This document shows, in pieces, positions 3,894-27,708 of a stretch of 64,000 nucleotides of DNA. The position numbers and the translations under genes were made by a program. Every line of letters begins with the position of its first letter. Position 1 is the first letter of the stretch. The notes below the pieces were generated by a model. The model searched no databases, was not told the origin of the DNA, and worked only from the letters and a program-made list of their open reading frames with translations. The DNA comes from Agromyces fucosus (GTDB taxonomy: Bacteria > Actinomycetota > Actinomycetes > Actinomycetales > Microbacteriaceae), in NCBI RefSeq assembly GCF_004134865.1, contig NZ_SDPO01000001.1:992001-1056000 (forward strand), given 5' to 3'.

Positions 3894-6800
3894 TTACTCG
3901 GCGGACTCCCCCGCTCGGCGACGACGGATCATCATCGCGGCGATCAGGAGCGCACCGGCGACGAGCAGGCCGCCCGCACCCCACAGGAGTGGCGCTCCCG
4001 CGAACCCGGTCGAGGCGATTGCGCCCGCCTGCGGGATCTTGACGGTGACCGTCGAGTCGTCGCAGAGCACCGGCAGCTCGGGATCGATGGCCGAGAGCAC
4101 CGAGAGCTCCCCTTCGGGCTGCACCTCGGGCGGTTCCGGCAGATCGTTCCAGCAGACCTCGCCCGTGTTGTCGATGCTCGACTTCTTCGAGGCGGGGTTC
4201 AGCGTCACGGCCAGCACCACGTCCGGAGCATCGGGCTCGGTGCCGCCGATCATGCCGTTCAGCACGCAGTGGAGCGTGCCGCCGTAGCCGGCCGAGTCCT
4301 TGCCGGTGACCTCGCAGTCGTCCCAGCGCGGGAAGGCGGGAGCGGGATCGGTCGTGATCGCGGTGACCTTGAGGTCGCCGGGGATCTCGTCGAACAGCTC
4401 CACGGCCTCGACCGCGCCGAGCCCCGAGTTGGTGACCGACAACGTGTAGTCGAAGGAACTGCCCGGCTTCGCCTCGGTCACGCTCGACGTCTTCAGGATC
4501 TCGACCGTCGGATCGCGCTGCACCTCGCAGGCCGGCGTGGCCTGGGGGTAGACCGCGAGCACGGACTGGCTCGGGTTGACCTGGAACGTGATCGTCATCG
4601 GGTTGAACTGGTCGGCGAACGCGTAGCTCTCGAGCTTCGAGTCCTTCACCATGTTCTCCCAGATGTCGACGATGCCGTTCTCGCCGACGACGTCGCCCTC
4701 CTGGATCAGGCGCCAGCCGGGCCATCCGATCGAGATGCCCTCATCGTTCACCACGCCGTACGGCCACAGCGTGCGACCGTTGCGCTCCTCCCACGGGATC
4801 TCCATGACGATCGGAGTCGCGTCGGGGTAGACGCTGGCGTCGGGCGTCCACGTGACCGTGATCGGTCCCGGAGCGACCGAGCCGGTCGTCTGCACGTTGT
4901 GGTAGAGGTACGGCACGTCGTTCACGCACTGCACGTAGGCGTTCGCCTGCATCGCCTTGGTCGGCACGTCTGCGGTGTCGCAGTCGTTCGTGGGATCGAT
5001 GTCGAACTCCGAGACCTCGACGCAGGCCGTGTTCTCGATGTTCTCCGCCGGTACGAGCGGCGGGACCTCACCCGGGTTCTCCGGCAGTTCCGGCCCGACC
5101 GCGGGGTCCTTCAGCGTCACGGGGATCGTGATCGTCACGATCGGTCCGGGGGCGAAGGTCGCATCGGTCGTCCAGGTCAGCTCATTGCCGTTCTGGAGGA
5201 ACGTCCACGATCCGATCGGGTCGAGCGTGATGTCGGCCGGGTTGAACTCGAGCGAGTCGGCGAGCGTGTCGGTGACGACGACGCCGTCCACCGGCGTGGG
5301 CCCGTTGTTCGTCACCGTCAGCACCCAGTTGAAGGTGTTGTCGTCGGTGCCGGCCTCGACCGCGTCGACGCCGTCGGGCAGCACCGCGGTCTTCACGATG
5401 CCGACCTCGACGATCGGGATGTCGACGCAGCCACTGATCGGCGTCTCGATCGTGCCGCTCGTGAAGAGCGCCCCGTTGAAGAAGCCGTGGCCGCTCTGCG
5501 TCTCGACGCACGTCGCGAGATCGATGTCGGTGATGCCCGTGATGTCGACGACCGCCGTGATCGACCAGGTCTGGTCGACGCCCGCCAGGATCTGTCGCGC
5601 CTCGGCGAGGACGGTGTCGTCACCGGTGCCGGTCCAGCCGGCGACCGGGTCGCCGTTCGGATCCTCGGCCGTGGCCGTGAACGTCGTGCCCGCCGGGAAG
5701 GCCGGCTCGTCGCTCAGGTCGTAGGAGAGGTCCTTGTCGGGGTCGGCGGTCACGACGATCTCGTACGCCACGGTGAACGTGCCGTCGAGGTTGTCCGTCG
5801 GCGAGCCGACGACCGTCTTCTCGGCGCTGGCCCGTCCGGGCTCATCGCACGCGCTGTCCTCCGTCGGCAGGTCGCCGACGGTGAGGATGGCCGTGTTGCG
5901 GAAGCCGCCCTCGCCCTCGGTGCACTCGACGGTCTCGTCGTCCCATGCGTCTTCGGTCACCGTCGCCTCGACGGTCACGAAGTACTCGTGCGTCACCTCG
6001 CCCGCCGTGAGGATCACGTTGTTCGCGAGCTCCTCGGTGGGCTCGATGGCCGGATCCAGCCAGCTGCCGCTCGAACCGCCGGGACCCGTCCATGTCGCCT
6101 CGGAGACCGTGATGCCCTCGCCGAAGTCGGCGAGCGTGTCACTCAGGTCGTAGGTGACGGCCGAGACGACGCTCTCGTCGGTGACCGTGATCTTGTAGTC
6201 GATCGTCCAGGTGCCATCGGCGTTCTGAACGGTCGAGACGACCTCCTTGTCGAGCCGGTAGGTCGCCGGGGCCGCGGTGTTCGTGATCTCGCACGTCACC
6301 TCCTGCCCGGGCTGCAGCGCGACGTCGCCGTCGGCCGCGTCGAGCACGAGCGGCTCGACGCCGTTCGTGGAGACGCAGCTCCAGAGCGAGGGCGTGAACT
6401 CGTCGTCACCGGCGAAGTCAGCCGCTTCCGAGAGCGTGTAGGCCAGGTTGGAGTCGACGGTTCCGGTCGCCGTTCCATCGCCCGTGACGACCGGCGGGTT
6501 GGCGCCGTCGGCAGCAGCGAGCGTCCAGAGCGTCGCCGGGAAGTCCGGCGCGATCTCGGGCGGCATCACCTTCTTCTCGAGCGTCAGCTTCGGCGCGACA
6601 TCCGTGTTCGTGATATCGCAGTCGACGGATGCGCCGAGCTCGGTGACCGTCAGGGTCGCACTCGTCGAACCGGGCACCTGCACGAGGGTGAAGGCGTCCT
6701 CCCCCTGCGGAGAGATGCAGCTCCACGTCGCCGAGACGGTGTACTCGATGCCGTTCTCGTAGCTCGTGCTGACCTCGTTGAGGGTGTAGCCGACGCCGAG

Positions 6801-9800
6801 CTTCACGGGGCCGCTCGACGTCCCGGCACCCGTGAAGGTGTCGGAGTCGTCGCCGACGTTCGTGCCGCTGACGCTCCAGTCCACGGGCACTGCTGCGCCC
6901 CCGTGCAGGTTGTCGACGTGCTTCTCGAGGCTGACCGTCTGCGTGCAGGTGACGGGGTTCGTCACCGTGTAGGTGCTGACCGTGCCCGCGAGGGTCTTGT
7001 CGCCCACGCCGATCGGGTCGTCGGCGACGCAGCCGTTCGGCACGAGTACTTCGCCCTCGTCGACGGTCACCTCGGCGCCATCGACGTACGGACCCTGCTC
7101 GATGCTCCACGGCACGTTCTGTCCGTCGAGTGTGGCCTGAGCGGTGAAGCCTGCCGGGAGGGACGGGCTGTCCCACTCGATCGGCGAGCCGCCGTTGATC
7201 GTCCACATCTTCTCGAGCACCACGACGACCGGAACGTCGAAGCAGGCGTCATCCGTGTACGTGTCACCCGAGGTGACCGTGGCGGTGTTCAGCAGTCCTT
7301 GCTCCTCGCAGCTCAGCGAGGGGTCGCTCGGCGTGGATTCGACCGTGAACTTCACGAGCACCGTGAACACGTCGCTCGCACCGCCCGGAAGCGCCTGGTT
7401 CGCGACGATCGAGTCGGTCTCCACCGGAATGGTGTTCCAGTCGGGGTCGACCGTCGCGTCGGAGCTCGTCACCGTGCGCGCCGTGATGGTGGCGGCATCG
7501 GCGAAGTCGGGCACGTCATCGAGGTCGTAGACGAGCCCCTGGCTCGGCGAGGTGTTCTTCACCGTGATGGTGTAGCTCGCCTCCCAGTGGTCCCCGACCT
7601 TGGTCACGGATCCCGTGGTGCTCTTCGTCACCTCGGGCTCGGCAGGCACGCCACAGCCGGTGTCGGTCTGCGTGCTCGTGCCTGAGGTGAGCTCGGCCTC
7701 GTTCAGGAACCCGACGTTCGGAGCTTCCTGGCTCGGCGTGCACGTGTCGGTCGCCGGGTCGGCGAAGGCCGCCTTGTCGACATTCGCGGTCACCGTGACC
7801 GTGAACTCCTCGACGACGTCGACGCCGATGGTCCGCGGCGAGCTCACGAGCGTCGCCGTCGGGTCGGCCTCGGGGTCGGCCCAGCTGCCCGACGTCGTTC
7901 CCGACCATGCTGCGGTCAGCACATCGATCTCGGGTCCGAACTTCAGGGTGTCGGCCAGCGTGTACTTCGTGATGAAGTCCGCGTTGCCGGTGACCGTGAT
8001 CGGGTAGGTGATGGTCCACACGCCGTCAGCACCCTGCACGACCGTCGGGTCGCCCTTCACGACCGTCGGCACGCCGCCGTCGGTGATGTCGATGCAGTCG
8101 CTGTCTTCGAGCTCGAACTGGCCGCTTGTGAGCACTGCCGTGTTGAAGAAGCCCTTGCCCGCGGTCGGAGCAGTCGGAACGCACTTGAGATCGGCGCCGG
8201 GCACGGAGCCGGACGGGACATCGACGTTCAGCACGATCGTGTAGACGTGCGTGGCGCCTGCCGCGATCGCGGTGGACCCGACGACCTCGATCGAGCCGCC
8301 GGCGTACGACTCCACCGGGCCGCCGTCGACCTGGTACGAGTGGAACTCGACGCCTGCGGGGAAGCCGGGTTCGTCATCGAGCGAGTAGTACGAGGGCTTG
8401 GCGCCGGGGGCCGTGTTCGAGACCGTCAAGGTGTAGGTCACGTTCCAGCTGCTGTCGGGCTGCTGGGCTGCGGTCGCCCCCGACTTCACGATCGTCGGAA
8501 CGCTCGGCGCATCGCACGCGGTGTCGACGGTCGGGACTCCGGCGACGGTCAGCGTGGCAGCGTTGTTGAATGCCGCGGCGTTCGCGTTGGGGCCCGGGCA
8601 CGCCGTCTGGGACGGCAGTGGGGTGGGGCCGGTCAGCACGATGCCGGTCACCGTGATGCGATACACGTCGCTCGGGTCGGGATCGCCGGCTGCGAGGTAG
8701 GCGCCGGTCGCGAGCGCCGCGCCATCCGTCCACGGTGCAGGGGCGCCGCCGTTCTTCGCGAGCGTGTAGCTCGCGCCCGAGACGTCGACGCCGGCGCCGA
8801 ACTTCGTCGCATCGACGAGATCGTAGACGCCGCCGATGGCACCGGTGTTCGTGACGGTGATGTCGTACGCGATCGACCAAGTGCCGTCGGCGGCCTGGCT
8901 CACCGATCCCGCCACGACGGTCTTGTCGTGCACGATGGTCGGCTTGTCGATGGAGACGCAGCCGGTCGCGGAGCCGGACTGGTTTCCGGCCGTGACCTTC
9001 GCGGTGTTGTCGAGGTTCGGGCAGAGGAGTGCCGGAGCATCCGCCCCGATCGCGACCTTCACCGCGACGGTGTAGACGTGCGTGTCGACGCCGGCGGTGC
9101 CGGCGAGCGTCACGTTGTCGGCGAGCAGGGTGTGCCCCGCGACGCCGGTCCACCCGGGCACGACGGTCACGCCGGCCGGCGGGGTGACCGTGCGGTCGAG
9201 CACGTCGACGGATGCCGGGTAGCCCAGTGTGTCGTCGAGGTCGTACTGCACGCTCGTGGTGGCCGAGGGGTTCGTCACCGTGATCGTGTAGGGCAGGGTC
9301 CAGGTGCCGTCACCGTTGTCGACGGCGGTGCCGCCGACCTTCGTGATCGTCGGCTTGACCGGGATCGAGCAGTCCTGAGCGGGGTAGTCGACGCCGCCGA
9401 CGGTCATGACCGCGGTGTTCAGGAAGCCGACGGTGCCGGGGGTGCCGGCGTCGCAGGCGGTCGGGCTCGTGCCGCCGAAGTCGGCGCCCGGGGCGACCGT
9501 CGCGTTGACGGTCACGTGCCAGGTGTGCGAGGTGCCCTTGACGAGGCTCGGCTCGCCGGCGAAGGCCTGCTCGCTGCCGAACGCGACGTTCCATGGCGTC
9601 AGCGAGCCCGGCGGTGCCGGCAGCGTGCGCTGGTAGTTCGCGCTGTTCACCGTGACGTTCGCCCCGAAGTCGAGCGTGTCGGTGAGGCTGTACGTCAGAT
9701 CCTGGAACGCACTCGGGTTCGTCACGACGATGTCGTAGCCGATGTCCCAGCTGACGCCGTCGGCGTTGGGCGTGGGAACGGCTGCGTTCTTCACGATCGT

Positions 9801-12800
9801 CGGGGTGATCGCCTTCAGCGTGTTCGTCACGGTGCAGTCGACCTTGTCGCCCGGAGCGAGCGGAGACACCGAGGGGCCGGGAACTGCTGCTCCCCCGTTC
9901 GTCGAGCAGAGCCACGTTCCGGCCTGGAACTGGTCGGCGTTCGGCAGTGCCGTCGACTCGGAGAGCGCGATCGTCTCACCGGCGGGCACATCGACGAATC
10001 CGGCCGTGCCGCCGTCGCCCTGGGCGACGATCGTGGCGCCGACCTTCGCGGCGAGGTTCCACGACGTCGGGAGTGCCACGTTTCCGGTGACGACCTTCGT
10101 CAGCTTCAGCTGCGGCGGGATCGGCTTGTTCGTGATGACGCAGGTGCCCTGTGCGAGAGCCGTGAGGGTGATCGTCGTCGTCGTGACGTACTGACCGTTC
10201 GGGCTCGTCTTGCACTGGATGCTCAGCTGCTCGTAGCCGGCGGGGCCGCCGGTCTCGGAGATCGTGTAGCTCGTGCCCGGTCGGACGAGCACGGTGTTGC
10301 CGCTCGTGGTCTGCACCGGACCGAGGCCCGGGATCGAGCCGCTCGGCGTGGCGACGAGGTTCCAGTCGCCCGGTTCGGCGTCGGCGCCGTCGAGCTGCTC
10401 GACGCTCTTGACGAGGGTGAGCTGCGCGGTCTGGTTGACCGCGGTGCACTGCACGCGGAATCCGAGGGGCACCGTGACGCCGCCGTTCAGGCCGTCGGCG
10501 AACCCGGGCACGACGACTCCCTGAGCGTTCACCTGCACGCAGTCCCAGCTGCCGGACGAACCCGGAATGGGGACGGCGTTCAAGCCGAGCGTCTGCACGT
10601 AGCGCGGGTCGCCGCTCTCGGTGAGCGGGTAGGTCACGTTCGGCGTCACGAGTGCCGTCGCGCCGGCGGTGCCGGTCGCTCCGTTCGGGCCGGCGAGCGC
10701 GCCTCCGGGCGCCACGGCGTCGAGGTTCCAGGTGTTCGCGGCCACGCCGCCGTTCGCCACCGTCTTCTTCAGCGTGAGCTGGGAGTCGCAGGTGACCGTG
10801 TTGGTGATCGTGTAGCTGTTGTCACCGGGTTGGAGGGTGGGGCTGAACGGCAGGGCGCCGTTGGCCGGCACCTGGCCGTTCGCGAGCGTGACCTTCCGAT
10901 CTGTGATCGTGCACAGGTCGCGCGATCCCACGCCCGTCGTCTCGTTGAGGGAGACGACCGTGTTGGCCGGCAGCGGGCCCTGCGTGGTCACCCAGGGCGC
11001 ATTGACTCCGCCGACCGTCAACTGCGCGGTGAGCCCGGGCGGCTGGTTGCCGTGCTGGTACGTGGTGCCGTTGACCACCCAGACCTTGTTGACGCTGAAG
11101 TTCGACTGCGGCAGTGGCGGTCGGTTCCAGACGTTGCATGTGACCGCCTGCGTCGAACTCACCGGGATCGAGAAGCCGTTCGCCTCGTTGGACACGGTGA
11201 TGGCGTTGCCCGTGGCCTGATCGGTGCAGACCGCGTTCTTGCCGCCCGTCTGCACGATGCTGTGGCCCTGCGGATCCTCGGTGACCTTCACCGTGCCGTT
11301 CGTGGTGCCGCCCGCGAAGGTGAGCGGGAGGTTGACCGCGCCGGTACCGGCGGCGGTCGTCCCCTCCTGCGTGGGCGGGGTGATGCCGGCGGTCGTGGGC
11401 TGGGCGGTGAACTTCCACCCGCCCGCGGGCGTCTGACCGGTCTTCTGCTCACCGGTGCTCGAGCTCGAGACGACCTGCTTGACGACCGAGACCGAGCCCT
11501 GGCAGGCGCCGAGCGCGAGGTCTCGGAGGATCGTTCCGGCCTGGTCGTAGCTCGAGGACTGGAAGTAGTCGGAGTTCAGCTGGTCGCCCGAGATCGCGAT
11601 GAGGTTGTCGGGCGAGCCCCCGACACCGCTGCCGACGCCGAAGGCGATGACGCGGGTGCCGAGCGCCTTGACCGCGTTCGCCGAGAACACGCCGTTCTCG
11701 ACCTCGCGGAAGCGGGTGCGGCTACCGGGGCCCTCGTCGTTCGCGTAGACCGTCGGGTTGCCGTCGGTGAGCACGAGCGCGATGTCGTACTGCGTGCCGC
11801 TCGTCGCGACCTGGTAGATGCCGCGATCCCAGTTCGTGGCCTCGGTCGGGGTGCTGAACGAGTCGATGTGGTTGCGCACGATGTTGGCACCGGCGACGGT
11901 GGAGACCGGCGTGATGCCGAGGTTCGCTCCGGCGGTCGCGGGGGCGACGTTGTTGAACGTGAAGATGCCCACCTGCGAGGGAGTGCCCTGCAGGGCGGTG
12001 ACGAAGCCCTTCGCCGCGTTCTTCAGGTCGGTGAAGTTCGGCGCCACGGAGCCCGAGAGGTCGATCACGAGGGCGATGCGCACACCGCACTGCTGTGCAC
12101 GGGTCGGGTTCGCGAGCGAGTTCTGCCAGATGCCGCCCGAGGCGTTGTTCGCCGTGTTGCCCGTGGCGATCATGAAGTCGGCCAGCGAGCTGAGGGTCTC
12201 ACCGGCGTCGACGTCCGCGATGCGGAATCGGTAGGCGGCGGACGCGGGCGTCTCGCCGACGGCGAGGGTGTCATTGGCGGACCAGCCGGCCGGGACGCCG
12301 GGCACGGCCTGCGCGACCCAGAAGTTCGAGTTGTTGGCATTCGGAACGGTGAAGGTGCAGACGCCTGCGGCGGTCGACACGCACGTGGCCCACGGCTGGT
12401 TGATGACGGAGCCGAAGGAGCCGCCGTTGTCGGTGTAGAGCTGGAGGGTCACTCCCCCGAGACCTCCGACGCTGGAGATGCCGGTGCGGGTGCCGCCGAC
12501 CTGGACGTTGACGGTGGCCGGGCCGCTGTAGGTGTGGGTGAACGTGCAGTTCGCGAACTTCTGGGTCGGAGAGCCGTTCGTGTTGCTGAACGTCACGGTC
12601 CGGTCGTCCTCGTCCCACGAGGGGTCCTGGTTGCCCGAGCCGCCGGTCGTGCACGTGAAGTCGGTGAGGGTGTAGTTCGCCGGCCCGCTGTCGGCGAAGA
12701 GCGTGTAGGTGTTGTTGCGGGGCACGGGGCGGGTCTGGCCCGAGGTGAAGTTGTAGTTGTCGCTGTTGCTCGAGCGAACGGCGTGCAGGGTCCACTGGCC

Positions 12801-13316: not shown

Positions 13317-13470
13317 GGTGGCCTTCTTGTGCTCGGGTGAGAAAGCGGAACGAGACTGTTGCGCAGTCGGGGCGAGTCAAGCAGAGGAAATGGGGGACAC
13401 GATAGGGCGCGCATGGCACCAATCCGGGGGACACGATTCGCCCGGAATCCCGTAATCATCAGGATCTTCG

Positions 13471-13500
13471 TCCTCAATGTCACCCGAAAGCGGGGTACGC
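13471..13500 (-). promoter_or_regulatory. Conserved upstream element of protein A (copy 1)
   Basis: In gene direction it reads GTACCCCGCTTTCGGGTGAC followed by ATTGAGGA. It closely matches elements before the 679-aa and 1429-aa adhesin genes. It lies about 155-185 bp upstream of the start codon. The rest of 13317-13535 also holds two GTGTCCCCC words in gene direction (about 13389-13398 and 13422-13431) but no clear promoter hexamers. Confidence 0.5.
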
Positions 13501-13535
13501 GAGATTTGCTCATGCGCCTCGAATGGGGGACACGC

Positions 13536-13574
13536 AGCGAAGCGGACCGGGTCGATGACCCGGTCCGCTTCGCT
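13536..13574 (-). terminator. Terminator of the 2389-aa adhesin gene
   Basis: Perfect 17-bp stem (13536-13552 with 13558-13574) around a 5-nt loop, 22 nt past the stop codon of protein B. It separates protein B from the protein A promoter region. Confidence 0.85.
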
Positions 13575-13596
13575 CGTCGTCGTGCTTTGAGCGGTG

Positions 13597-19500: not shown

Positions 19501-20766
19501 CGTCGAGGGGTTCGTCACCGTGCAGACGGTCGACTGGAACGCCCAGGGCGCCGGCGGCGTCGCCTCGGTGAGCGAGTAGTTGGTTCCGGCGAAGACGTTG
19601 CCCCAGGTGTGGGTGTCGCCGACGCCGATCGGCGCGCCGAGCCCGGCGTTGCCGGCGACCGCGTCACCGGCCGGCGTCTGGCCGACGCCGGGACCGGTGA
19701 GGGTGCCGTCGTGCACGGCGGCACCGCCGGCGCGGGTCACGGAGTAGTTGAACGAGGCGTTCGGTGCGCCGGCCGTGCCGACCTTCTTCACGACGAGTCC
19801 GCCGCAGTTCGAGAGGGTGATCGGGTCGGAGGAGACGAGGCGGTCCTGCAGCGTCGCGGTGTCGCTGTTGCCGGTTCGTGTGATGAAGCCGGAGTCGAGG
19901 AAGCTGCGGCAGGCGCCGTCGGCCGGGAGCAGGCCCGAAGCCGTGAGGTCGACGGCCATCTCACCGAACGTCGCGTCGGTGCCGGAGGTGTTGGTGTCGG
20001 TGTTGCCGCCGACCGCGGCCTGGTAGACGATCGGCGCACCGGTCGGCTCCCAGCTGTTGCCGTCCCAGCCCAGGATGCGAACCGAGGTGTTCGGGTTGCC
20101 GGAGGGGTCGTAGTTGAACTCGATGAGGTAATCGTCGGCACGACCGGCCGCGGGCCCCTCGAACACCTCGTACGAGGTCATGTCGCCGTTGCCCGACAGG
20201 CGCGTCCAGTAGGCGTAGAAGATGGTGTGCGGCACGCCGCCGACCGTGACGACCTCGTAGGCCGAGCCGCCGGTGCAGGCGTCGCCCTTGGCGTTCGCCG
20301 AGTTCGTGATGAGTGCTGCCCACGGGTTGTCATTGACCTTCGCACCGCCCGGGAACACGCTCAAGGTCTCACTGGCCCCGCAGGTGCCCGGCGAGCCGAG
20401 CGTCGCGCCGCTGTCAGCAGTTCGCTGCGCGTCGAGGATGCCCGAGGACGGCCCGCCGCCGGCCGCGTACGGCGCCTTCGGCGTGCTGCCGACGACGTTG
20501 TTCCAGTCGAGACCACCGTTCGGTGCGGTGTTCCCGTCGATCTCGAACGAGGTCGTGATCGGCCCGAGCGTCGCGGCCTGCGCCGACTCGGCCGGCGCGA
20601 CCGCCATCACGACGGCGCCGCCCGATGCCACGAGCGCGGTGGCCACCACGAAGGACAGGAGCCTCCGCCTGGCCCGACTCGCCTGCAGTCGGAGAGACCG
20701 GGCGCCGAGGGGCTCGGTCGCCGGGGTCGTTGAACGGGTACGCAGACGTCGCTGGGCGCTCATCAT
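13597..20766 (-). CDS. Giant prealbumin-repeat surface protein (protein B), 2389 aa
   Basis: Function unknown; likely a long surface stalk. Signal peptide about 1-65 (RRRLL then hydrophobic to AQAA). A unique N-terminal beta domain (about 66-330) has no VWA. About eleven tandem prealbumin/Cna-B-like units follow (about 330-1480), each closing with C-x-[VIYL]-x-N (CTITN, CTYTN, CEVTN, CTYVN and so on). Then two 140-residue units with FRNTAFLT and FFNEATML, a DUF11-like domain (about 1898-2040), the shared Cys/Trp module (2050-2198), a second DUF11-like domain (2199-2340), MAVTGF, one membrane helix (about 2356-2378) and RRRR. Two adjacent ATGs (20766, 20763); the second has better spacing to GAAGG. 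Domain names are from pattern recognition only. Confidence 0.9.
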   Translation of the reverse strand: MMSAQRRLRTRSTTPATEPLGARSLRLQASRARRRLLSFVVATALVASGGAVVMAVAPAESAQAATLGPITTSFEIDGNTAPNGGLDWNNVVGSTPKAPYAAGGGPSSGILDAQRTADSGATLGSPGTCGASETLSVFPGGAKVNDNPWAALITNSANAKGDACTGGSAYEVVTVGGVPHTIFYAYWTRLSGNGDMTSYEVFEGPAAGRADDYLIEFNYDPSGNPNTSVRILGWDGNSWEPTGAPIVYQAAVGGNTDTNTSGTDATFGEMAVDLTASGLLPADGACRSFLDSGFITRTGNSDTATLQDRLVSSDPITLSNCGGLVVKKVGTAGAPNASFNYSVTRAGGAAVHDGTLTGPGVGQTPAGDAVAGNAGLGAPIGVGDTHTWGNVFAGTNYSLTEATPPAPWAFQSTVCTVTNPSTNQLETYTNPAAFAIYIGATTTCTITNVTSGVKITKVAQGDAATFDYTVTGQQGNVQVAGNASSQVFYYVPGTPVTITELPEISTPAWNLTALACDGGAAVVNLPLGQASVTTVAGQVVNCTYTNVQDGQIKIIKNVAGANDTFDFSTTGADLSDFELTTVGGTATKLFESVAPGAYSVTETSPAPKYDLTSLSCVDDVIGDSIPTLATGTAAINVQPGELVTCTYTNTQRGNIIVTKQTNPDKSSAVFDFTLTGQAGFTLVDGASKSFMNIVPGSYTLAELAEAGWDVTSMTCSGENPTTDSPIGITLSPGETVECTVLNTATKGDVTVEKKVTGVPADYAWSFPISISPEVPGQPGTRNATNLVPTVAWTDLDVGVQYTLTEGDLTGWDEGDITCTGITDEKADVAGFQFTVTPGLSLDCEVTNDAEPGEVTVEKTVTGVAAGQAWSFDLTISPAAGVLPAAKQVVSGSGNSSDSVTWTNLVIGTEYTITETLPAGWTGGVVECGPDSNPGLPGDQFVAAPGSSLECSVENAASPGSAKVTKTSVGASGSFTFVLTPIDPAGDPVEQVIQTPAGGGAGETTFANLVPGTKYSIAEQDPGSGWVAGELVCTVTHAGGGGAVAVTESGFTVVAGDVFDCTITNTAKGTIIIVKNINGADDTFDFTGTWPGTTNFGVTTENGTGQEVFSNIVAGSYTVTELLTNTHVGELQGCVESRSGGAADNGSSVQGLVGSIDLDPGETITCTYSNTQLGKIIVDKNVTFDSDQSFDFEYTEKAGTTSFALTGSADPWESDLLEPGTYTIEELGETNWTLQSLQCVGSNGVVYDDGLATITLLAGEVVTCTYVNAPDTGDVTVRKIVEGVPAGYDFDFIIAISPQVGVQAVQQHVTDEDSSVEWTDLVVGETYTLTEIGQDGWTESDFTCNGGALEDADGTLDGFQFVVTPGLSLSCEITNTAEPADVTVTKHVTGVPDGFQWSFPLTIAPTDDVVGANPQSVSGTGNTTDTATWTNLAIGTIYTVTEGALPPGWSGGAVVCEDGDPQTVGNTFVATPGASLTCEVTNDVVPPTGIITKDLVSIEQLTDGTWDLVYEVKVANQSPVAPLVYDLDDQPYFGVGIIINDASAEGPSGEAASWDPKASNYVLADDESVPASATDTYTITINATAGEEVFNTSQDQCQEGQTTEGGFRNTAFLTVGEGDPQPATDCGEPGRTTVTKDLVGSPVRIDDIADPNFGDWIVNYEIVVTSESDLPLYYDLDDDLGFPDGVDIESATATNDAGINTTAWNGDTVTVLADDELITAGDVHTFSIVVRADVDAITVIDDVTCVATTSGHGFFNEATMLNGTITEVVSDCETIPVGRLTLLKTVDVSAFEGIDIDDLGFGDITMLTPNDWNLSGIGTTRTVGSLGGAGVVFTVPTGDYLLNEAATTEASTHPLLSYFFAQGWRCGDEPATSATVNLGELTSCSLVNKAELVDVGIEKNYDLSGLPDDAIEGGDEFDFVLTVTNHSSIPVAELDVTDLVDPELEVTGPAAFEGAGTWTEQPTVGDNAFTAHGVGPFAPGAVTTITIPVRLPMPDPVEAEIVDPDDPVPPLPEIELGDVPNEACVAITSDEGVLGDLIEANNCDEVEVPRKAIDPAAYVRCIADVPWLYFNVAASEHVETGDITVTWTSADPDGDGPLEPLTKVETVPWEDHDSRLLWPGAAVDENGVPYEFPGWRPITEEDLTNPPVPGTRFGDLILDENVPTYPWRDMVNPATITFSVNPSQSVLAVYPQALPACAIEREPAVDIVKTASVQEAKPGTNFDYTLAVSTTGTGSADPVEVFDEIPSNLRVDEITTAPSPAFPRWENCDVTGTDSAGYGGTLHCDLLGVLGPNYPTAPPIVLDVHVNPNTKATSIVNTGEVCWQNADDASSDPVVLCDDSTVTVRVPQPMAVTGFAGEAYIWVGALLLLLGGVFVGGAYVVRRRRAGGTV

Positions 20767-20996
20767 CAGCCTTCGGGTTTCGGACGCGATGTCACCACCG
20801 CATCCGGCTGTGTTCCGACCCGGGCGACCGGGCCACGGAGAACGCGGGTACGAACTCCAGAATCCACGGGTAAGAGGACTCGTTCGTCAGTCTCGCACCG
20901 GGGGCGTTCGCGAGGAACCCTCGGGCTGACACCAAAACAGGGGGTGAAACAGGAAATCGGGGGACACGCCGCGCCGCGCACTGCGGCGAGACGGCA
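20767..20996 (-). promoter_or_regulatory. Upstream region of protein B gene
   Basis: 230 nt without a gene. It keeps only fragments of the element seen before the other three adhesin genes: a GAACGCGGGTACG-like half at about 20837-20852 and a GTGTCCCCC word (gene direction) at about 20959-20967. No clear -10/-35 pair is visible. The RBS is GAAGG immediately upstream of the ATG pair. Confidence 0.3.
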
Positions 20997-21034
20997 CGCG
21001 GATGCCGCGGCTCACGCGAGCCGCGACATCCGCG
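20997..21034 (-). terminator. Terminator of the 1429-aa adhesin gene
   Basis: 17-bp stem with one mismatch (20997-21013 with 21018-21034) and a 4-nt ACGC loop, 17 nt past the stop of protein C. Core GGATGCCGCGG is shared with other hairpins in the window. Confidence 0.8.
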
Positions 21035-21051
21035 CGCCTGATCTCGTGCGC

Positions 21052-24000
21052 CTACACTCCCCCGGTGCGGCGCCTCCGGATCACGACGTAGGCGACCGCG
21101 ATGCCGCCGACCAGGAGCATGCCCGCGGCGATCCAGATGAACGGCCCGCCGGCGAACCCGGTACTCGCGATGGCTGCGCCGGGCTGCGGAACGTGCACGG
21201 TGACGGATGCGTCGTCGCACAGGATCTGCTCGGCGGGATCGAGCGGGATCGCTCCCTCGGCCGATGGCGCGGTCTGGTCGTCGGGGAGGTCGTTCCAGCA
21301 GATCTCACCGGTGTTGACGATGCTCGACGAGGTCGACTTCGGATTCAGCGTGACCGAGAGCACCACGTCGGGTGCATCCGGTCGCGTGCCGCCGATCTGG
21401 CCGTTCAGGATGCAGTGCAGGGTGCCGCCGTAGCCGGCGGAATCCTTGCCCGTCACCTCGCAGTCGTCCCAGCGCGGGAACGCCGGAGCGGGCGGCGTGG
21501 TGATCGAGTTCACCTTGAGGTCGGCCGGGATCTCGTCGAAGAGCTCCATCGCCTTCGTGGCGCCGAGGCCCGGGTTCGTGATCGACAGGGTGTAGTCGAA
21601 CGTCGCGCCGGGCATCGCCGAGGTGACGCTCGAGGTCTTCTCGATCAGCGGCCCTGCCTCACGGGTCACCGCGCAGGCGGGTGTCGCCTGCGGGTAGACC
21701 GCGAGCACCGACTGGCTCGGGTTGATCTCGAAGGTGATCGTCATCGGGTGCAGCTGGTCGGCGAACGCGTAGCTCGGCAGCGACGAGTCCTTCACCATGT
21801 TCTCCCACGAGTCCACGATCGTGCCCTCGCCGACGACGTCGCCGGGCTCTGCGAGGCGCCATCCGGGCCAGGCGATCGAGATCCCCTCGTCGTTCACCTC
21901 GCCGTACGGCCACAGCACGCGGCCGTTGCGCTCCTCCCAGGGGATGACCGTCACGACCGGCACCGCATCGGGGTAGAACACCGGGTCGGGGGTCCACGTG
22001 ACCGTGATGTCGGACGGGGTCACCGGTCCGGCGGTCATGACGTTGTGGTACAGCCACGGCACGTCGTTGATGCACTGCACGTAGGCGTTCGCCTGCATGG
22101 CCTTCGTCGGCACCGTGGTGTCGTCGCAGTCGTTGTCGGGGTTCAGGTCGCTGGTGGGCAGCGACGGGACCTCGACCGCGGCGAGCGCGGCGCTGACGTC
22201 GTCGATCGGAGGCTCGGGCACGACGATCTCGACGCACGCCTCGTTCATCACGGGCTCGGCCGGAATCGGCTCGGGCGGAACCTCGGGGTTCTCGGGCAGC
22301 GGTACGACCGGCTCGCCGAGGAAGCGCACCTGGAACCGGAACACCGTCTCGGACCCGGCGGCGTAGGTGCCGTCGTAGACCGCAGTGAACTCGTTGCCCG
22401 TGAACGACGCATCCCAGTTGGGATCGGCCGGGGTGATCTCGATCGCGCTGAGCACCTCGAGCGTGTCCGGCAGCGTGTCGGTCACCATGGCGCCGGGAAC
22501 GTCGGGGCCGTGGTTCGTCACCGTGAGGGTGAACCAGAAGTCCGAGTCCGCCGGGTCGCCGTCGGGATCGAAGTCGTCGATGGCCTCGACGCCCTCGCTC
22601 AGCTCGTAGTCCTTCACGATGCCGAGGTCGGCCGGGTCGGCGGTGTTCTCGATGCTGCAGGTGACATCGCCTCCTGCCGTCACGTAGACCTCCGCTTCGG
22701 GCTGCAGCCTCTCGAGCTCCGGGCCCCCGTCGCACACCCACTCGCCGGGCACGTAGGTGCCGTCGACGACATAGGGGTTGTCGGAGTCGGGGTTCGGACG
22801 CTCGCTCAGGTCGTACCAACCCTCGGGAACGAGGTAGCTCCTGCCCGGGTCGGACATGCCGGGATCCTCGACCGTGACCGGCCCCTCGGCCTTCAGCAGC
22901 CAGTCGCTCGGCACGGCGAGCGGAAGGTCGGGATCGATGACCTCGTTGATGTCCTCGATCGCCTGGTTGTCGACCTCCTTGATGAGCGTCAGGCGTGCGG
23001 GAGCGTCGCAGTCCTCGTCCTCGCGGACGCCGGTGCCGATCCTGACGATGCCGGTGTTCGAGAACCCGCCGCCCTCTTCGCCGTCGCAGCCGTATTCGGG
23101 CATGCCCTCGTCGTCGATCGTCGCGGTGATCCGCACGTACCAGCTGTCGGTGACGCCGACGGCGATCGGAACGTCGGTGGCGATGAGGTGCTCGCCGTTC
23201 GGAGTGAACGGCCCTGCCAGCGGATGTCCCGGGGCATTGGTGTCCTCACCCGGCTCCCAGTACTCGATGGCCGAGATCGTCATGCCAGGGCCGAAGTCCG
23301 TGGCGTCCGACAGCGAGTACTCGGTGTCGACGTCACCCGTGTTCTCGACGTCGAGCGTGTACCCGAGCGTCCACGCGCCGCTCACGACATCGAGGTCGGT
23401 CTCCACGACGGTCTTCTCGATCGTCACGTCGGGCGTCGGGTTCTCGGTGACGCAATCGTCGACGGGCACCGCCTGCGAGGCCGCGAGGGTGACGGTGTCG
23501 GGGCATCTCCCGTTGTCACTCGGGGTGACGAGGTTCGCCAGTACTCGGTCGAACGCATCGTCGTCGACGCGCACGGTGAAGGAGATGCTCGCCTCCTCCC
23601 CCGGCGCCAGGGTCGGGATCGACCACGTCAGGACGTCGCCGGCGATGCTGAGCGGCGGCGCGATCGGCGTGACCATCTCGGAGTCGTCGAGCACGTCGCC
23701 GAGGTCGTCGACGAGCGTGGCGCCGGTCACCGGCACGAATCCGTCGTTCTCGGCATGCAGGGTGTAGGTGACGTCCTGGCCGGGCAGCACCGTGCTGCCG
23801 TCGGTCGGATCGACCGTCTTCCAGCCGAGCCACCGCGGTGCGAAGGTGTTCAGCACCCAGCAGTGGGTCGTCACCTCTTTCGCCACGCTGGCGGTGAAGG
23901 TCCGAGCGGCCGCGTCGAACGGCACGGCGACGGCGTCGGCCATCTCGGAGGTCGTACCGCACTTGGCCCCGGTCAGGAGGCTGCCGTTGTTCGGAGTCTC

Positions 24001-25341
24001 CGAGAAGACGACCTGGCGGGCGGGCGGGTCGGGCACCACGGCGAAGCCCGTCACCGCATACGGGTCTGTCTGGCTGGACGCGTCGGTGATGTCGCTCGTC
24101 GGGGCGACGTCCGAGGTCGCCGTCGAGAACTCCCAGCCCACACCGCCGGGCGTGCCCGGGAAGGCGACGCCGACCTGCTTGTGGACGATCACGTTGCCGG
24201 CGCACAGCGCCTTCGCGACGAGCTGCAGGTCTTCGGCGAGGCTCGCGTAGTCGTCGGTGTTCATGTAGTCGGCGGTCGAGATGTTCGAGCCGTTGAACGC
24301 GTCAGGGCCGGAGATCGACTGGATCGGGCCGAGGGAGACGTTCGGACCGACCGCCACCACGAAGACGTGCGACGGATCCGCCTTGATCGAGTTGGCCTCG
24401 AGGATCGCCGGGTTCACCGCTTCGGGCGAGCCGTCGGGGAATTCACCGCCGTTGCCGGGGTCGACCGTGTTCGGGTTGCCGTCGGTGATCACGATCGTGA
24501 GTTCCACGGGCTGTTCGCTGAAGCCCCCGAACGAGCCGGCGCCGACCTCGAGTCCGCGCTTCCAGTTCGTCCATCCGTCGGAGACCAGGCTGCCGTAGGA
24601 GTCCTGGATGTCGGCGAGGTTCGCGCTCGTGAGTGCGATCGCCGGTTGCAGCAGTGCCGCATCCTGGTCGAAGGAGGTGACGGAGACTTCGGAGCCCGTG
24701 TCCTTCAGCGCGTCGGTGAACGCGTCGGCGGCGGCCTTGAGGTCCCCCATGCCCTCGTCACCGATCGATCCCGACTTGTCGAGCACGAGCGCGAAGTCGA
24801 GCCCGCAGCTGTTCGGGAGGTCGGGGTTCGGCGCCGGCGCCGGGTCGGCGGCGGCAGCGAAGCTGCGAAGACCGGCCTGCTGCTCCGCGAGGCACGCGTC
24901 GCGCGCACTGCGGTCGTCGTTGCCGATCGGGATCGCCATGCAGTCGACGGGCGCGGGAGCCGCGGCCTGCTGCTGGGCGGCCGCCTCCTCGGCCGGAGGT
25001 TCCACGACCGCGGCGGGCGGCGCCTCCTCCTCAGCCGAGGGTGCCTCCTCGGCAGGCGGCGCCTCCTCGGCAGGCGGCTCGACCGCTTCCGCCGATGGTG
25101 TCTCGTCGACAGGGGGGGCATCCGCCTCCGTCGCGGCGGGCTGGTCTTCCGCCGTCGTGGCGGCCTCGTCAGCGGCCGCAGGCGGCGTCGCCAGCTCATC
25201 GGCGGCCGCGAGCGTCGGGCCACCGAACAGGATCAGCGCGCCGACCGTGATCGCGGCGAGCAGTGCTCGGACCGGCGAGGTCGGAGGCGACGCCGAGTCG
25301 TCGGGGCGGATGGCGGATCGGGTGCGCAGTTTGCGATGCAT
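21052..25341 (-). CDS. VWA-domain surface protein (protein C), 1429 aa
   Basis: Function unknown; a shorter relative of protein A. Signal peptide about 1-47 (hydrophobic core, LAAAD), then an Ala/Pro/Glu linker (48-135) and a von Willebrand A domain (about 180-375). The MIDAS is intact (DKSGS at about 187-191, then ITDGNP). Next come a prealbumin-like unit (about 390-500), a DUF11-like domain (505-635), one 140-residue unit with FSNTGIV (638-780), a prealbumin-like unit (780-910), a DUF11-like domain (912-1078), the Cys/Trp module (1080-1226) and a DUF11-like domain (1227-1380). It ends with IASTGF near 1391, a membrane helix and RRRR. ATG 25341 has GGAG seven nt upstream. The C-terminal 350 residues are very close to those of protein A. 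Confidence 0.9.
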   Translation of the reverse strand: MHRKLRTRSAIRPDDSASPPTSPVRALLAAITVGALILFGGPTLAAADELATPPAAADEAATTAEDQPAATEADAPPVDETPSAEAVEPPAEEAPPAEEAPSAEEEAPPAAVVEPPAEEAAAQQQAAAPAPVDCMAIPIGNDDRSARDACLAEQQAGLRSFAAAADPAPAPNPDLPNSCGLDFALVLDKSGSIGDEGMGDLKAAADAFTDALKDTGSEVSVTSFDQDAALLQPAIALTSANLADIQDSYGSLVSDGWTNWKRGLEVGAGSFGGFSEQPVELTIVITDGNPNTVDPGNGGEFPDGSPEAVNPAILEANSIKADPSHVFVVAVGPNVSLGPIQSISGPDAFNGSNISTADYMNTDDYASLAEDLQLVAKALCAGNVIVHKQVGVAFPGTPGGVGWEFSTATSDVAPTSDITDASSQTDPYAVTGFAVVPDPPARQVVFSETPNNGSLLTGAKCGTTSEMADAVAVPFDAAARTFTASVAKEVTTHCWVLNTFAPRWLGWKTVDPTDGSTVLPGQDVTYTLHAENDGFVPVTGATLVDDLGDVLDDSEMVTPIAPPLSIAGDVLTWSIPTLAPGEEASISFTVRVDDDAFDRVLANLVTPSDNGRCPDTVTLAASQAVPVDDCVTENPTPDVTIEKTVVETDLDVVSGAWTLGYTLDVENTGDVDTEYSLSDATDFGPGMTISAIEYWEPGEDTNAPGHPLAGPFTPNGEHLIATDVPIAVGVTDSWYVRITATIDDEGMPEYGCDGEEGGGFSNTGIVRIGTGVREDEDCDAPARLTLIKEVDNQAIEDINEVIDPDLPLAVPSDWLLKAEGPVTVEDPGMSDPGRSYLVPEGWYDLSERPNPDSDNPYVVDGTYVPGEWVCDGGPELERLQPEAEVYVTAGGDVTCSIENTADPADLGIVKDYELSEGVEAIDDFDPDGDPADSDFWFTLTVTNHGPDVPGAMVTDTLPDTLEVLSAIEITPADPNWDASFTGNEFTAVYDGTYAAGSETVFRFQVRFLGEPVVPLPENPEVPPEPIPAEPVMNEACVEIVVPEPPIDDVSAALAAVEVPSLPTSDLNPDNDCDDTTVPTKAMQANAYVQCINDVPWLYHNVMTAGPVTPSDITVTWTPDPVFYPDAVPVVTVIPWEERNGRVLWPYGEVNDEGISIAWPGWRLAEPGDVVGEGTIVDSWENMVKDSSLPSYAFADQLHPMTITFEINPSQSVLAVYPQATPACAVTREAGPLIEKTSSVTSAMPGATFDYTLSITNPGLGATKAMELFDEIPADLKVNSITTPPAPAFPRWDDCEVTGKDSAGYGGTLHCILNGQIGGTRPDAPDVVLSVTLNPKSTSSSIVNTGEICWNDLPDDQTAPSAEGAIPLDPAEQILCDDASVTVHVPQPGAAIASTGFAGGPFIWIAAGMLLVGGIAVAYVVIRRRRTGGV

Positions 25342-25389
25342 GTTCGAACTCCACGTTCGGGTGCTGGTAGGCCGGCTCGGGCGTTTCTC

Positions 25390-25474
25390 GGGTCAGCGGC
25401 ACCAGTCTGCTCGCACGTTTCCGCAGAACTCAAGGAATTCTCACCTCTTGGTGTCCCCCAATTCGCGGGGTACG
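25390..25474 (-). promoter_or_regulatory. Conserved upstream element of protein C (copy 2)
   Basis: In gene direction: CGTACCCCGCGAATTGGGGG, then ACA, a GAGAATTCCTTGA segment, GCGGAAAC, and the block ACTGGTGCCGCTGACCC (25390-25406). The same blocks in the same order lie before the 679-aa gene, so these two promoters are homologous. The 327-nt gap 25342-25668 otherwise contains only the protein D terminator. Confidence 0.6.
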
Positions 25475-25594
25475 AAGATGGATCCCACAGGCTCCGATTG
25501 CACCGTCGATCCCGCATGATCACTGGCCGAGCGGCCCTTCCCGGCGGCATCTGAGCGCTCGCTCCGCCGCTCGGCCCCGAGGCCCCTGTACCCC

Positions 25595-25642
25595 GAACAG
25601 ACGGATGCCGCGACTCTCGCGAGTCGCGGCATCCGTCTGTTC
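25595..25642 (-). terminator. Terminator of the 679-aa adhesin gene
   Basis: A perfect 22-bp stem (25595-25616 with 25621-25642) and a TCGC loop, one of the strongest hairpins in the window, 27 nt past the stop of protein D. The core is GGATGCCGCG. Confidence 0.9.
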
Positions 25643-25668
25643 GACCTCAGCCGAGGTCGGGGGCCACC

Positions 25669-27708
25669 TCAGGCCCGGACGCGACGCCGGGCGCCGAATC
25701 CGAGTGCTGCGCTGCCGGCCAGCAGGAGCAGCGCGCCCGCGGGCAACATGGCGAGCGCGTCACTGCCCGACTCGGCGAGCGCGGTCGGCGAGCCGCCTGC
25801 CGGCGTGCTGCTCGGCGGGTTCTGCGGCGGTGCCGCGTTGCAGTTCGGCGTCGGCGGCGGGTAGACCGCGATCGCGTCGTTCGACGGGTTGATGCGGATC
25901 TCGACCACGGCCTCGCTGCGGAGGTCGTAGAACGGCGCACTCGGGTCGAGCACCCACGTGCCGTCCGCCTGCAGCGTCCACCCGGGCCAGTCGGTCGGGT
26001 TTCCCTCGGCGTCGACCTCGGCGCCGGGCCAGAGCTGCTGACCGGAGATCGTGTCACCGCTCATCCACCCTGACGGGTACGGGATCGCGTCGACCTGGGA
26101 GGCGCCGTCGGCCAGGAGGGCGGCGACGTCGTCAGCCGGGATCGACGGGTCACGACCGGCGAATGCCGCCGGGGTCCACCAGATCAGCGAGATCGGGTTG
26201 GCCGCGGTGTCCTCGATGCCGTACGGCGTGATCGCGTACATGAACCACGGGGTGTCGTTCACGCACTGCGCCATGCCATCCAGGCCGATCGACTTCACGG
26301 GGTGGTCGACCACGCACGAGCCGTTGCCGTCCCGCGCGACCTCTTCACCATCGACGTCGGGGCACTCGCCACCCGGGCCCGGTGCGACCACGTTGTGGAG
26401 CAGTTCGCCGACGACGTCCTCACCGACCTGCACCGTGTACCAGGTCTGGGCGGACTCGCCCGGTTCGAGCGAGGGCACCGTCCAGGTCAGCTGATTCCCG
26501 TCCTGGACGAGGCCGGGGCCGAGCTCGAGAAGGGTGGCGTTGTCGAGCACGTCGGTGATGTCGTCGAACGCCTGCGCGTCGTCGACCGTCGCCTCCGAGG
26601 TGTTCTCCGCGTCGAGGTAGTACGTGATCATGTCGCCGGCCTCGACGGTCTCGCCGTCAGCCGGGTCGGAGCTCTTCATGAGCTCCCATCCTGGAACGGG
26701 CGGCGGCGGGCAGGGTACGACCGTGACGTTCTTGACGAGGTCCTTCGTCACGTCGTCGCCGACGCGATGCAAGGTCACGGTGAAGCTGCCTGGCACCAAG
26801 GAGAACGGGAACTCCATCTCCATGCTGGACACGGTGAAGTCCTTGAACGCGACCTCGTCATGGGTCTCGGTGTCCACCACGGTGAGGGTGTATTCGAAGC
26901 CCACGAGCAGCTTCGCGAGCGTGACCAGGACGAGCGGCGGCGTGCCGCCGGGCTCCGTGCAGATCGCTGCGAAGACCTCGATCGACGGCGGGGCCGGGTT
27001 GCAGTCCGCCTCGGTGATCTCGGTCTTCGTGGTGTTCAGACCCGGGAAGAACTGCTCGACGTGCTCCGCGTCGAAGTACCAGAACGCCGGGATGATATCG
27101 GCGAAGTCGTGGTGCACCGAGTGCGCCTTCTTGTCGTCCGTCGTGTCATCACCGTCGATGATCGACCGGACGCTCGGCGAGATGAACACGAACGGGTTCG
27201 ACTCGCTGCGCGTCGAGTGACAGATGTCGACGTGATCCTTCCACTCGGGGATCGTCACCGGAGGACCGCCCTCGCCGGCCGCCATGACGCGGGCCTGAGC
27301 CGGCGCCTCGACCGGAACCTCGACCACGGTCTCGCTCGATGCCTCCGGCACGGCCGCACTCTCGGGCACGGGGGGTTCGGCTGCCGGCTCGGGTTCGGGC
27401 TCGGCGGCAGGCTCCGGCGCGGGCTCCGCCACGGGTTCGGGTTCGGCGACGGGAACCTCGACCGGCTCGGCCACAGGGGCCGGCTCGGCTTCGGGGGCGG
27501 ATGCCTCGGCGACGACCGCATCCGCGGGTGGGACCGCGTCGTCGGCCACTGCCATCGAGGGAACGCCGAGCAGCACCAGTCCGCCGATGACGATCGACGA
27601 GAGAATGAGCCGCGCACCCCCGGACCATCCTGGCGGCGGCTCGGTGGCACGCATCGATCGACGGGTGGCGCGAGAATCCTCGCGCGCGCGGGCTCGTGTC
27701 GGGTACAT
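25669..27708 (-). CDS. Small anchored surface protein (protein D), 679 aa
   Basis: Function unknown; first gene of the adhesin block in transcription order. Signal peptide about 1-55, a striking Ala/Pro/Glu/Val linker (56-140), then a Cys/His-containing domain (about 160-237) with CHSTRSESNPFVF and HHDFADIIPAF. From memory this resembles a CHATG...NPY...DIIPPF region seen in other actinobacterial surface proteins. A beta region (240-340) and a DUF11-like domain (340-465) follow. The Cys/Trp module is at about 472-625 (QCVNDTPWF, WPGW, INPS, AVYP). Unlike its three neighbours it has no DUF11-like domain after this module. It ends in LAESG, a membrane helix and ARRRVRA. GGAG precedes the ATG by 6 nt. 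Confidence 0.9.
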   Translation of the reverse strand: MYPTRARAREDSRATRRSMRATEPPPGWSGGARLILSSIVIGGLVLLGVPSMAVADDAVPPADAVVAEASAPEAEPAPVAEPVEVPVAEPEPVAEPAPEPAAEPEPEPAAEPPVPESAAVPEASSETVVEVPVEAPAQARVMAAGEGGPPVTIPEWKDHVDICHSTRSESNPFVFISPSVRSIIDGDDTTDDKKAHSVHHDFADIIPAFWYFDAEHVEQFFPGLNTTKTEITEADCNPAPPSIEVFAAICTEPGGTPPLVLVTLAKLLVGFEYTLTVVDTETHDEVAFKDFTVSSMEMEFPFSLVPGSFTVTLHRVGDDVTKDLVKNVTVVPCPPPPVPGWELMKSSDPADGETVEAGDMITYYLDAENTSEATVDDAQAFDDITDVLDNATLLELGPGLVQDGNQLTWTVPSLEPGESAQTWYTVQVGEDVVGELLHNVVAPGPGGECPDVDGEEVARDGNGSCVVDHPVKSIGLDGMAQCVNDTPWFMYAITPYGIEDTAANPISLIWWTPAAFAGRDPSIPADDVAALLADGASQVDAIPYPSGWMSGDTISGQQLWPGAEVDAEGNPTDWPGWTLQADGTWVLDPSAPFYDLRSEAVVEIRINPSNDAIAVYPPPTPNCNAAPPQNPPSSTPAGGSPTALAESGSDALAMLPAGALLLLAGSAALGFGARRRVRA

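Follow-up and report, generated by a model that had tools for sequence, protein, structure and literature searches.

Fibrillar adhesins, as far as the accessible text of two reports describes them (PMC8286594, PMC9210967), are surface-anchored proteins of great length that carry an adhesive domain on a stalk of repeats, and VWA combined with SpaA has been described there for Actinobacteria. Here we analyze a block of four genes, P1 to P4, in a 64,000-nucleotide stretch of the genome of the soil actinobacterium Agromyces fucosus (contig NZ_SDPO01000001.1, positions 992,001 to 1,056,000; hereafter the window). A preliminary description of this DNA had found no named system for the block; fibrillar adhesins now offer one. 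P1 and P3 fit this class, with their great length, probable N-terminal VWA domain, SpaA/DUF11 stalk and predicted sortase anchor, whereas P2 and P4 have no known adhesive domain. Length together with a repeat stalk is found in P1 and P2, while P3 has one of each repeat unit plus DUF7927 and DUF11-type domains and P4 lacks repeats; the architecture of a sorting signal is predicted in all four. Unlike described fibrillar adhesins, the block is an array of paralogs that keeps to one site; its genes have similar operators, and its proteins share a module at the wall end, which we call WPG, and exchange their wall-end cassette. We consider it probable that the block is an island of paralogous, wall-anchored fibrillar adhesins with isopeptide-type stalks, attached by a lone class E sortase, placed under a shared operator, and exchanging their wall-end cassette. 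In the open-licence literature, where absence is no proof, we found no description of these Agromyces proteins or of WPGW surface proteins, and the sortase substrates of Microbacteriaceae seem to have been little studied.

In an all-against-all alignment, the C-termini of P1, P2 and P3 were 37-59% identical, far above background (E-values of 2.5e-105 for P1/P2, 3.0e-117 for P2/P3 and 7.8e-173 for P1/P3). P4 could be aligned in two parts, the WPG module and a single Ig-like domain (E 1.6e-10 to 1.9e-19); the alignment of its signal peptide with that of P3 was weak (E 6.7e-4). We then counted relatives in 37 Agromyces genomes, namely the window genome (G000) and 36 congeners (G001-G036). Relatives lie at the same locus in 19 of the congeners as well as in the window genome. 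The proposal of the preliminary description that the four genes form one related, linked set therefore stands: C-termini at background level and relatives that are always unlinked, the two outcomes that it had named as speaking against one system, were both absent.

Overall, 20 of the 37 genomes have one to four such genes beside the sdh operon. The complete set of P1, P2, P3 and P4 occurs in the window genome only. The other genomes have P1, P3 and P4 (G034); P1 and P3 (G018, G026); P1, P2 and P4 together with Px, a further VWA-type protein (G013, G033, G029, G019); P1, P2 and P4 (G023, G009); P1 and P2 (G021, and also G027 at contig ends); P1 and Px (G004); Px and Py, another giant (G025, G031, G003); P1 alone (G008, G028, G015); or three other giants (G017). 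The site is empty in 14 genomes, with sdhB and yihY matches 67-244 bases apart. In the remaining three (G007, G020, G032; loci L183, L184, L185) the yihY ortholog is absent and xth adjoins sdhB, or lies 1.7 kb off in G020. A relative is found at the same locus also in a Leifsonia genome. Since G021 keeps, beside yihY, a match to the end of P4 with an inner stop, gene losses do occur. The open reading frames (ORFs) were called with a filter on GC content by codon position; sdhB is missing from the resulting neighbour tables for G013, G029, G026, G028, G015 and Leifsonia, where sdhA is near the block, and yihY from those for G025, G031 and G003, where xth or trpS is next. As judged from these genomes, the block is a conserved chromosomal island with a variable gene set. 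The variation from one to four genes, the 14 empty sites out of 37 and the presence of another WPG protein beside the S10 ribosomal operon of Microbacterium would also suit a recombination-prone gap behind sdhB, in which unrelated long proteins have collected. This explanation is hardly credible in view of the shared C-terminus, the shared boxes upstream of the genes, the exchange of cassettes and the fixed number of repeat units in each gene type.

The repeat in question is a unit of approximately 130-140 residues (140-unit), whose copy numbers of 8, 2, 1 and 0 in P1 to P4, given by the preliminary description, were recovered exactly with an iterated profile. These numbers had been taken as a sign that one ancestral gene was duplicated and its stalk lengthened, which is not supported as a continuing process: there are 8 units in 16 out of 16 P1 orthologs, 2 in 9 out of 9 P2, 1 in 4 out of 4 P3 and 0 in 8 out of 8 P4. 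Moreover, of 1920 best-hit comparisons between P1 units, 1918 paired units of the same position. With numbers fixed per gene type and positions kept in P1, the growth of the stalk is mostly old, and ongoing expansion is not supported, with the exception of the G017 protein. This shorter P1-like protein, not counted as an ortholog, has 6 units and counts against a fixed number, just as the range of 5-7 prealbumin-like units among P1 orthologs counts against a fixed stalk. The block also differs from periscope proteins, which have variable numbers of near-identical repeats: the 140-units are 26-41% identical to the reference unit, and their constancy in P1 is one between species, not strains.

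The wall ends have a different history. In a tree of the C-terminal cassette, built without G004b 2757050, a protein whose match is split, P1 falls into two groups, 8 rows with P3-type and 8 with P2-type ends; the test rejects a clade of all P1 (p-AU 1.5e-72). In G023, the ends of P1 and P2 are 90-100% identical over approximately 240 residues, while the preceding stretch is 21-57% identical in most windows, and the two genes share 395 identical bases in a row. Near-identical ends next to a divergent stretch indicate recent gene conversion in this genome. The wall-end cassette has clearly been swapped between the P1, P2 and P3 types. Exchange between neighbours would allow tips and stalks to diverge while the anchoring end stays alike. 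If true, swapping of wall ends seems to contribute more to the evolution of these adhesins than addition of stalk units.

Towards the wall end lies the WPG module, named for the motif LWPGAxVDxxGNPxDWPGW and common to P1-P4. It lies directly before the anchor in P4, and one DUF11-type domain separates it from the anchor in P1-P3. WPG is a newly recognised domain for which no Pfam or NCBIfam model was found. When three modules of the window were scanned alone, two had no Pfam family and one gave a chance match (E 0.24); NCBIfam had no family for these three or for a Flavobacterium module, and no Pfam family was found in a 263-amino acid Actinotalea frame composed of little beyond signal, WPG module and anchor. 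A profile search of the Agromyces loci that were fetched detected WPG in 50 proteins, and a scan of named genomes returned at least 87 matches in at least 85 reading frames of at least 76 loci. Six of 246 genomes drawn across the phylum have it, the window genome and one congener included. Outside the phylum, the matches listed are in many Flavobacterium proteins and a few proteobacterial giants, with 28-49% identity over the best segment (28-46% among those of Flavobacterium). Again among the matches listed, the last WPG module is 42-193 residues from the C-terminus in the 31 proteins judged to be of sortase type by their tail. This distance is mostly 320-426 residues in Flavobacterium and at least 1010 residues in three proteobacterial loci (L154, L159, L160). 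Placement at the wall end is thus a rule only for Actinomycetota, because the Flavobacterium and proteobacterial modules lie far from the end. The giant proteins of the type B type IX secretion system (T9SS) in Flavobacterium are alike in being long surface proteins with a WPG module, and unlike in that the module is not at the anchor; the one protein that we scanned (locus L138) has HYR, SprB and CHU_C domains, CHU_C being a sorting domain.

Solved structures provided no close relative of WPG. The best sequence match was an LPXTG adherence protein (8bdw) at E 0.029 only, Foldseek found none at E 0.001 when the model was compared with the PDB and viral models, and the best VIA match (Z 7.5) was at background, although background-level matches alone do not show a new fold.

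Several minor observations concern WPG proteins elsewhere. The window genome has two more of them, of 467 and 836 amino acids, with LAETG and LASTG ends (G000:C4:171030-175014, L197), and a GGGGGACA site precedes the 836-amino acid gene. Two WPG modules each are found in the Leifsonia protein at the same locus (L115:9152-10477) and in an Isoptericola protein (L141). Beyond the phylum, the module is carried by giant proteins of Flavobacterium, Wenzhouxiangella and Rhodocyclaceae (loci including L131, L138, L146 and L165). The Microbacterium WPG protein of L117:8024-20115 precedes the S10 ribosomal protein operon; the approximately 15 small genes beside it, considered as a possible new system, are this operon (five proteins scanned). 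The giants of G004 and G017 (L048, L047) adjoin clusters with gene sizes like those of the L117 cluster. A plasmid origin was also considered and rejected, as tblastn with the WPG module of P3 had no match in 72,556 plasmid records.

At their ends, all four translations have the features that the preliminary description had reported, namely a basic N-terminal signal peptide and a C-terminal motif followed by a hydrophobic stretch and an Arg-rich tail. The genome has a single PF04203 sortase, on a different contig, which reaches 242.5 bits with the class E model (cut-off 160). As the same protein reaches only 41 bits with the model of class C, the pilin type (cut-off 160), no class C sortase was found in the genome. 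P1-P4 are probably attached to the wall by this lone enzyme, and resemble in part the substrates of class E sortase (SrtE) as far as these are covered by the accessible text (PMC5148588, PMC13251363): the sole sortase is of class E, and near-LAXTG motifs are followed by a hydrophobic stretch and a basic tail. They differ in the motifs themselves, which are IASTG in P1 and P3, MAVTG in P2 and LAESG, without the usual T, in P4; LAVTG, LAETG or LAATG is used by some orthologs. Small chaplin-type proteins are among the known SrtE substrates, and the architecture of P1-P4 is unlike theirs. The LAESG end of P4 (window 25669-25810) is shared with G034 and G013, while the other five orthologs have LAETG, LAATG or LPGTG; anchoring of P4 may be altered.

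The sortase also bears on whether P1-P4 could be the shaft, tip and base pilins of a pilus that a pilin sortase polymerises. Sortase-assembled pili do contain VWA tips and SpaA-type domains, and several subunits are here linked at one locus. A polymerised pilus is nevertheless very improbable, and we rejected it, since the lone PF04203 match is of class E rather than class C and lies on another contig; in addition, subunits of 1400-3140 amino acids with built-in stalks would need no polymerisation. The lack of a class C sortase implies that the proteins probably form single fibres.

The stalks are composed of domains associated with internal isopeptide bonds. SpaA_2, SpaA_4, DUF11 and DUF7927 domains were detected in the block by the Pfam scan, and all four are isopeptide families in the accessible part of a published list (PMC12617251). 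Prealbumin-like units number 11 in tandem plus one more in P2, 6 in P1, 1 in P3 and none in P4; as read from the alignment, Lys, Glu and Asn are kept in all 11 tandem units of P2. All 11 of the 140-units have Asp and Asn, and 10 have Lys at the aligned place; this K-D-N pattern is, at the level of sequence, a signature of CnaA-like isopeptide domains. Internal Lys-Asn bonds are therefore predicted in the stalk units, judging from these residues. Three of the 11 140-units, scanned alone, matched no Pfam family above cut-off, DUF11 included. The predicted model of the unit (pLDDT 82.4) resembles the CLIPPER (DUF11) domain 9ifr, described in the accessible part of PMC12617251, in fold and in the K-D-N signature (VIA Z 7.7, root-mean-square deviation 2.8, 102 aligned residues, 22% identity), and differs from it in that the DUF11 model does not match the three units scanned. 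The Z of 7.7 is near the level of unrelated sandwiches, many of which are also close to the model, the best at Z 8.3.

At the distal end, P1 and P3 have probable VWA domains with a DxSGS motif, which we take to be of the MIDAS type. The N-terminal 266-residue piece of P2 (window 19792-20589) has no Pfam or NCBIfam match and is a candidate adhesive domain. The N-terminal domain of P4 (window 26689-27261) also has no match in either collection; it shows the pattern CHSTRSESNPF...HSVHHDF...IIPAFWYF. These ends matter for another explanation, in which the long proteins form a surface coat or matrix, protecting the cell or keeping cells together with no specific ligand involved. The absence of a known adhesive domain from P2 would agree with it, and so would the firm sporangia of Actinoplanes, which need a wall-anchored protein according to the accessible text of PMC13293333. 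We regard a coat as unlikely, because of the DxSGS-bearing VWA domains of P1 and P3, and because the N-terminal ends differ while the wall ends are alike, as expected for proteins with different targets.

Boxes of similar sequence precede the four genes. The main box, CCCCNNNTTNGGGGGACA, is present with at most one mismatch upstream of 12 of the 16 P1 and 3 of the 8 P4 genes, and in 1 of 566 control regions; this region is a P4-like fragment at the end of a contig. Looser forms precede P2, P3, P4 and most Px genes, the P2 form being weak. Since the automatic start codon of several P1 orthologs is too far upstream, some boxes fall inside the predicted ORF. A second element, TGAGGAATCCTTGAA, is found with at most three mismatches before 4 of 4 P3, 6 of 8 P4 and 7 of 8 Px genes, before none of the 16 P1 and 8 P2 genes, and in 1 of 566 controls. 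In the whole 4-Mb genome, CCCCGNTTTCGGGKGACA with at most one mismatch occurs only before P1 and P4, and the second element with at most two mismatches only before P3 and P4. When up to three mismatches are allowed, CCCCGNTTTCGGGKGACA has 26 sites genome-wide compared with 3 in the reversed control; two of the 26 (C1:965015 and C3:536309) are beside genes without recognisable link to surface structures.

A similar palindrome, GTACCCC-N5/6-GGGGTAC, is repeated three times in tandem upstream of the flp pilin gene in the window genome, G034 and G021, and present once in G018. Five of 27 Agromyces genomes contained it; the reversed control of GTACCCC-N5-7-GGGGTAC had 1 or 2 sites per strand in 7 of the 27. 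GTACCCC sites of looser form stand upstream of flp in G013, G029 and G030, the last of which has no block. The flp gene was recognised in 6 of the 15 loci fetched, and a wider pattern, tried on four loci, added G034 and G018. The box motif could not be tied to any known regulator. One regulator common to Flp pili and adhesins might act on these sites, and this is the weakest link of our proposal. Only tentatively, with more doubt than confidence, we extend the proposal as follows: WPG could be a new extracellular domain that spans phyla, in all likelihood an Fn3-like sandwich that faces the wall or a glycan and has a conserved loop rich in Trp; in Agromyces, together with the anchor, it could serve the adhesin stalks as a base cassette open to exchange; and these genes could as a set have been recruited to a palindromic operator already governing Flp pili, forming one surface-attachment regulon. 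A lone further palindrome, GTACCCC-N5-GGGGTAC, lies at G000:C2:161854-161872 (L199), where we recognised no surface gene beside it.

Several results weigh against an island of sortase-anchored adhesins under a shared operator. The block is missing from this site in 17 of the 37 genomes. The motifs of P1-P4 are not strict LAXTG, deviating at position 1 (P1-P3) or 4 (P4), and the motif is TAVTG or TAITG in 6 of the 16 P1 orthologs. The VWA domain of P1 was detected only when the piece was scanned in isolation (30.8 bits, cut-off 23.8), not in the whole-protein scan at E 1, and that of P3, with 22.5 bits, is just below the same Pfam cut-off of 23.8; P2 and P4 have no recognised adhesive domain in the Pfam scan. 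As for the operator, the main box with at most one mismatch precedes none of the 8 P2, 1 of the 4 P3, none of the 8 Px and none of the 3 Py genes, and CCCCN7GGGGGACA, a looser form, shows no enrichment across the genome (10 sites, compared with 9 for the reversed control). In favour of the operator are the 30 distinct pattern sites that we counted over 896 kb of Agromyces DNA, 28 of them near the starts of giant genes (31 kb), 1 before the P4-like fragment and 1 elsewhere; as the pattern was written after the sites had been seen, its recall is biased.

If the block is an island of fibrillar adhesins, each protein would be exported, retained by the C-terminal hydrophobic stretch and positive tail, and then attached to the wall by the lone class E sortase. 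CnaA-like (DUF11, DUF7927, 140-unit) and CnaB-like (prealbumin/SpaA) domains, each made stiff by Lys-Asn bonds within it, would make up a stalk that carries the distal domain outward, VWA in P1 and P3 and domains without assigned family in P2 and P4, with the WPG module at the wall end of all four. Each gene would be transcribed alone, and the common palindromic operator, weak in form before P2 and accompanied by the second element before P3 and P4, would put all four under one regulator, which perhaps also controls Flp pili. Because they share a wall-end domain and similar control sites, P1-P4 can be tested as one attachment system, not as four proteins without relation to each other. If true, the island is a defined one, and its operator could be used to fish for the regulator. 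The WPG family would then span sortase-anchored, T9SS-secreted and proteobacterial giants, and could give a name to many unannotated surface proteins.

Table 1. Positions of the P1-P4 genes and their domains, hairpins and promoter elements in the window; the last row refers to another site of the genome
Feature	Position	Strand	Description or basis
P1	3894..13316	-	3140 aa; VWA, 8 x 140-unit, 6 prealbumin-like units, DUF11, WPG module, DUF11-type domain, IASTG anchor
P2	13597..20766	-	2389 aa; N-terminal domain without family, 12 prealbumin-like units, 2 x 140-unit, WPG module, DUF11-type domain, MAVTG anchor
P3	21052..25341	-	1429 aa; VWA, DUF7927, 1 x 140-unit, SpaA_2, WPG module, DUF11-type domains, IASTG anchor
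P4	25669..27708	-	679 aa; N-terminal domain without family, DUF7927, WPG module, LAESG anchor
P1 VWA domain, DxSGS motif	11529..12077	-	piece scanned alone
P3 VWA domain, DxSGS motif	24274..24798	-	whole-protein scan
P1 140-units 1-6	7263..9806	-	iterated profile
P1 140-units 7-8	5451..6269	-	iterated profile
P2 140-units 1-2	15478..16314	-	iterated profile
P3 140-unit	23032..23430	-	iterated profile
P2 run of 11 prealbumin-like units	16321..19794	-	K-E-N signature
WPG module of P1	4503..4970	-	profile search
WPG module of P2	14152..14631	-	profile search
WPG module of P3	21652..22116	-	AlphaFold2 (AF2) model, pLDDT 91.7, Fn3/Ig-like beta sandwich
WPG module of P4	25810..26307	-	profile search
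Operator box before P1	13478..13495	-	CCCCGCTTTCGGGTGACA
Variant box before P2	20927..20944	-	CCCCCTGTTTTGGTGTCA; 3 mismatches to main box
Operator box before P3	25452..25470	-	CCCCGCGAATTGGGGGACA
Operator box before P4	27808..27825	-	CCCCGCGTTCGGGGGACA
Second promoter element before P3	25427..25443	-	TGAGAATTCCTTGAGTT
Second promoter element before P4	27787..27803	-	TGAGGAATCCTTGAATT
Hairpin after P1	3845..3870	-	folding scan
Hairpin after P2	13536..13574	-	folding scan
Hairpin after P3	20993..21038	-	folding scan
Hairpin after P4	25594..25643	-	folding scan
Triple palindrome before flp of Tad locus	G000:C2:636859-636946 (L193)		

The four same-strand ORFs were borne out in length, exact coordinates and minus-strand orientation (Table 1). 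The preliminary description had called all four proteins giant, with repeat domains in each, which is right for P1-P3; P4, with only 679 amino acids, is not giant and has no 140-unit, no prealbumin-like unit and one DUF7927 domain. The block is flanked by sdhCDAB on one side and by yihY, xth and trpS on the other, names that we read from the translations. A scan for T-tail terminators listed none of the four hairpins. A strong hairpin, as previously noted, does lie 3' of each gene, with arms of 11-23 bases that are 90-100% complementary and folding z-scores of -4.1 to -9.6 relative to shuffled sequences. Together with the promoter-like elements, these hairpins suggest that each of P1-P4 is its own transcription unit.

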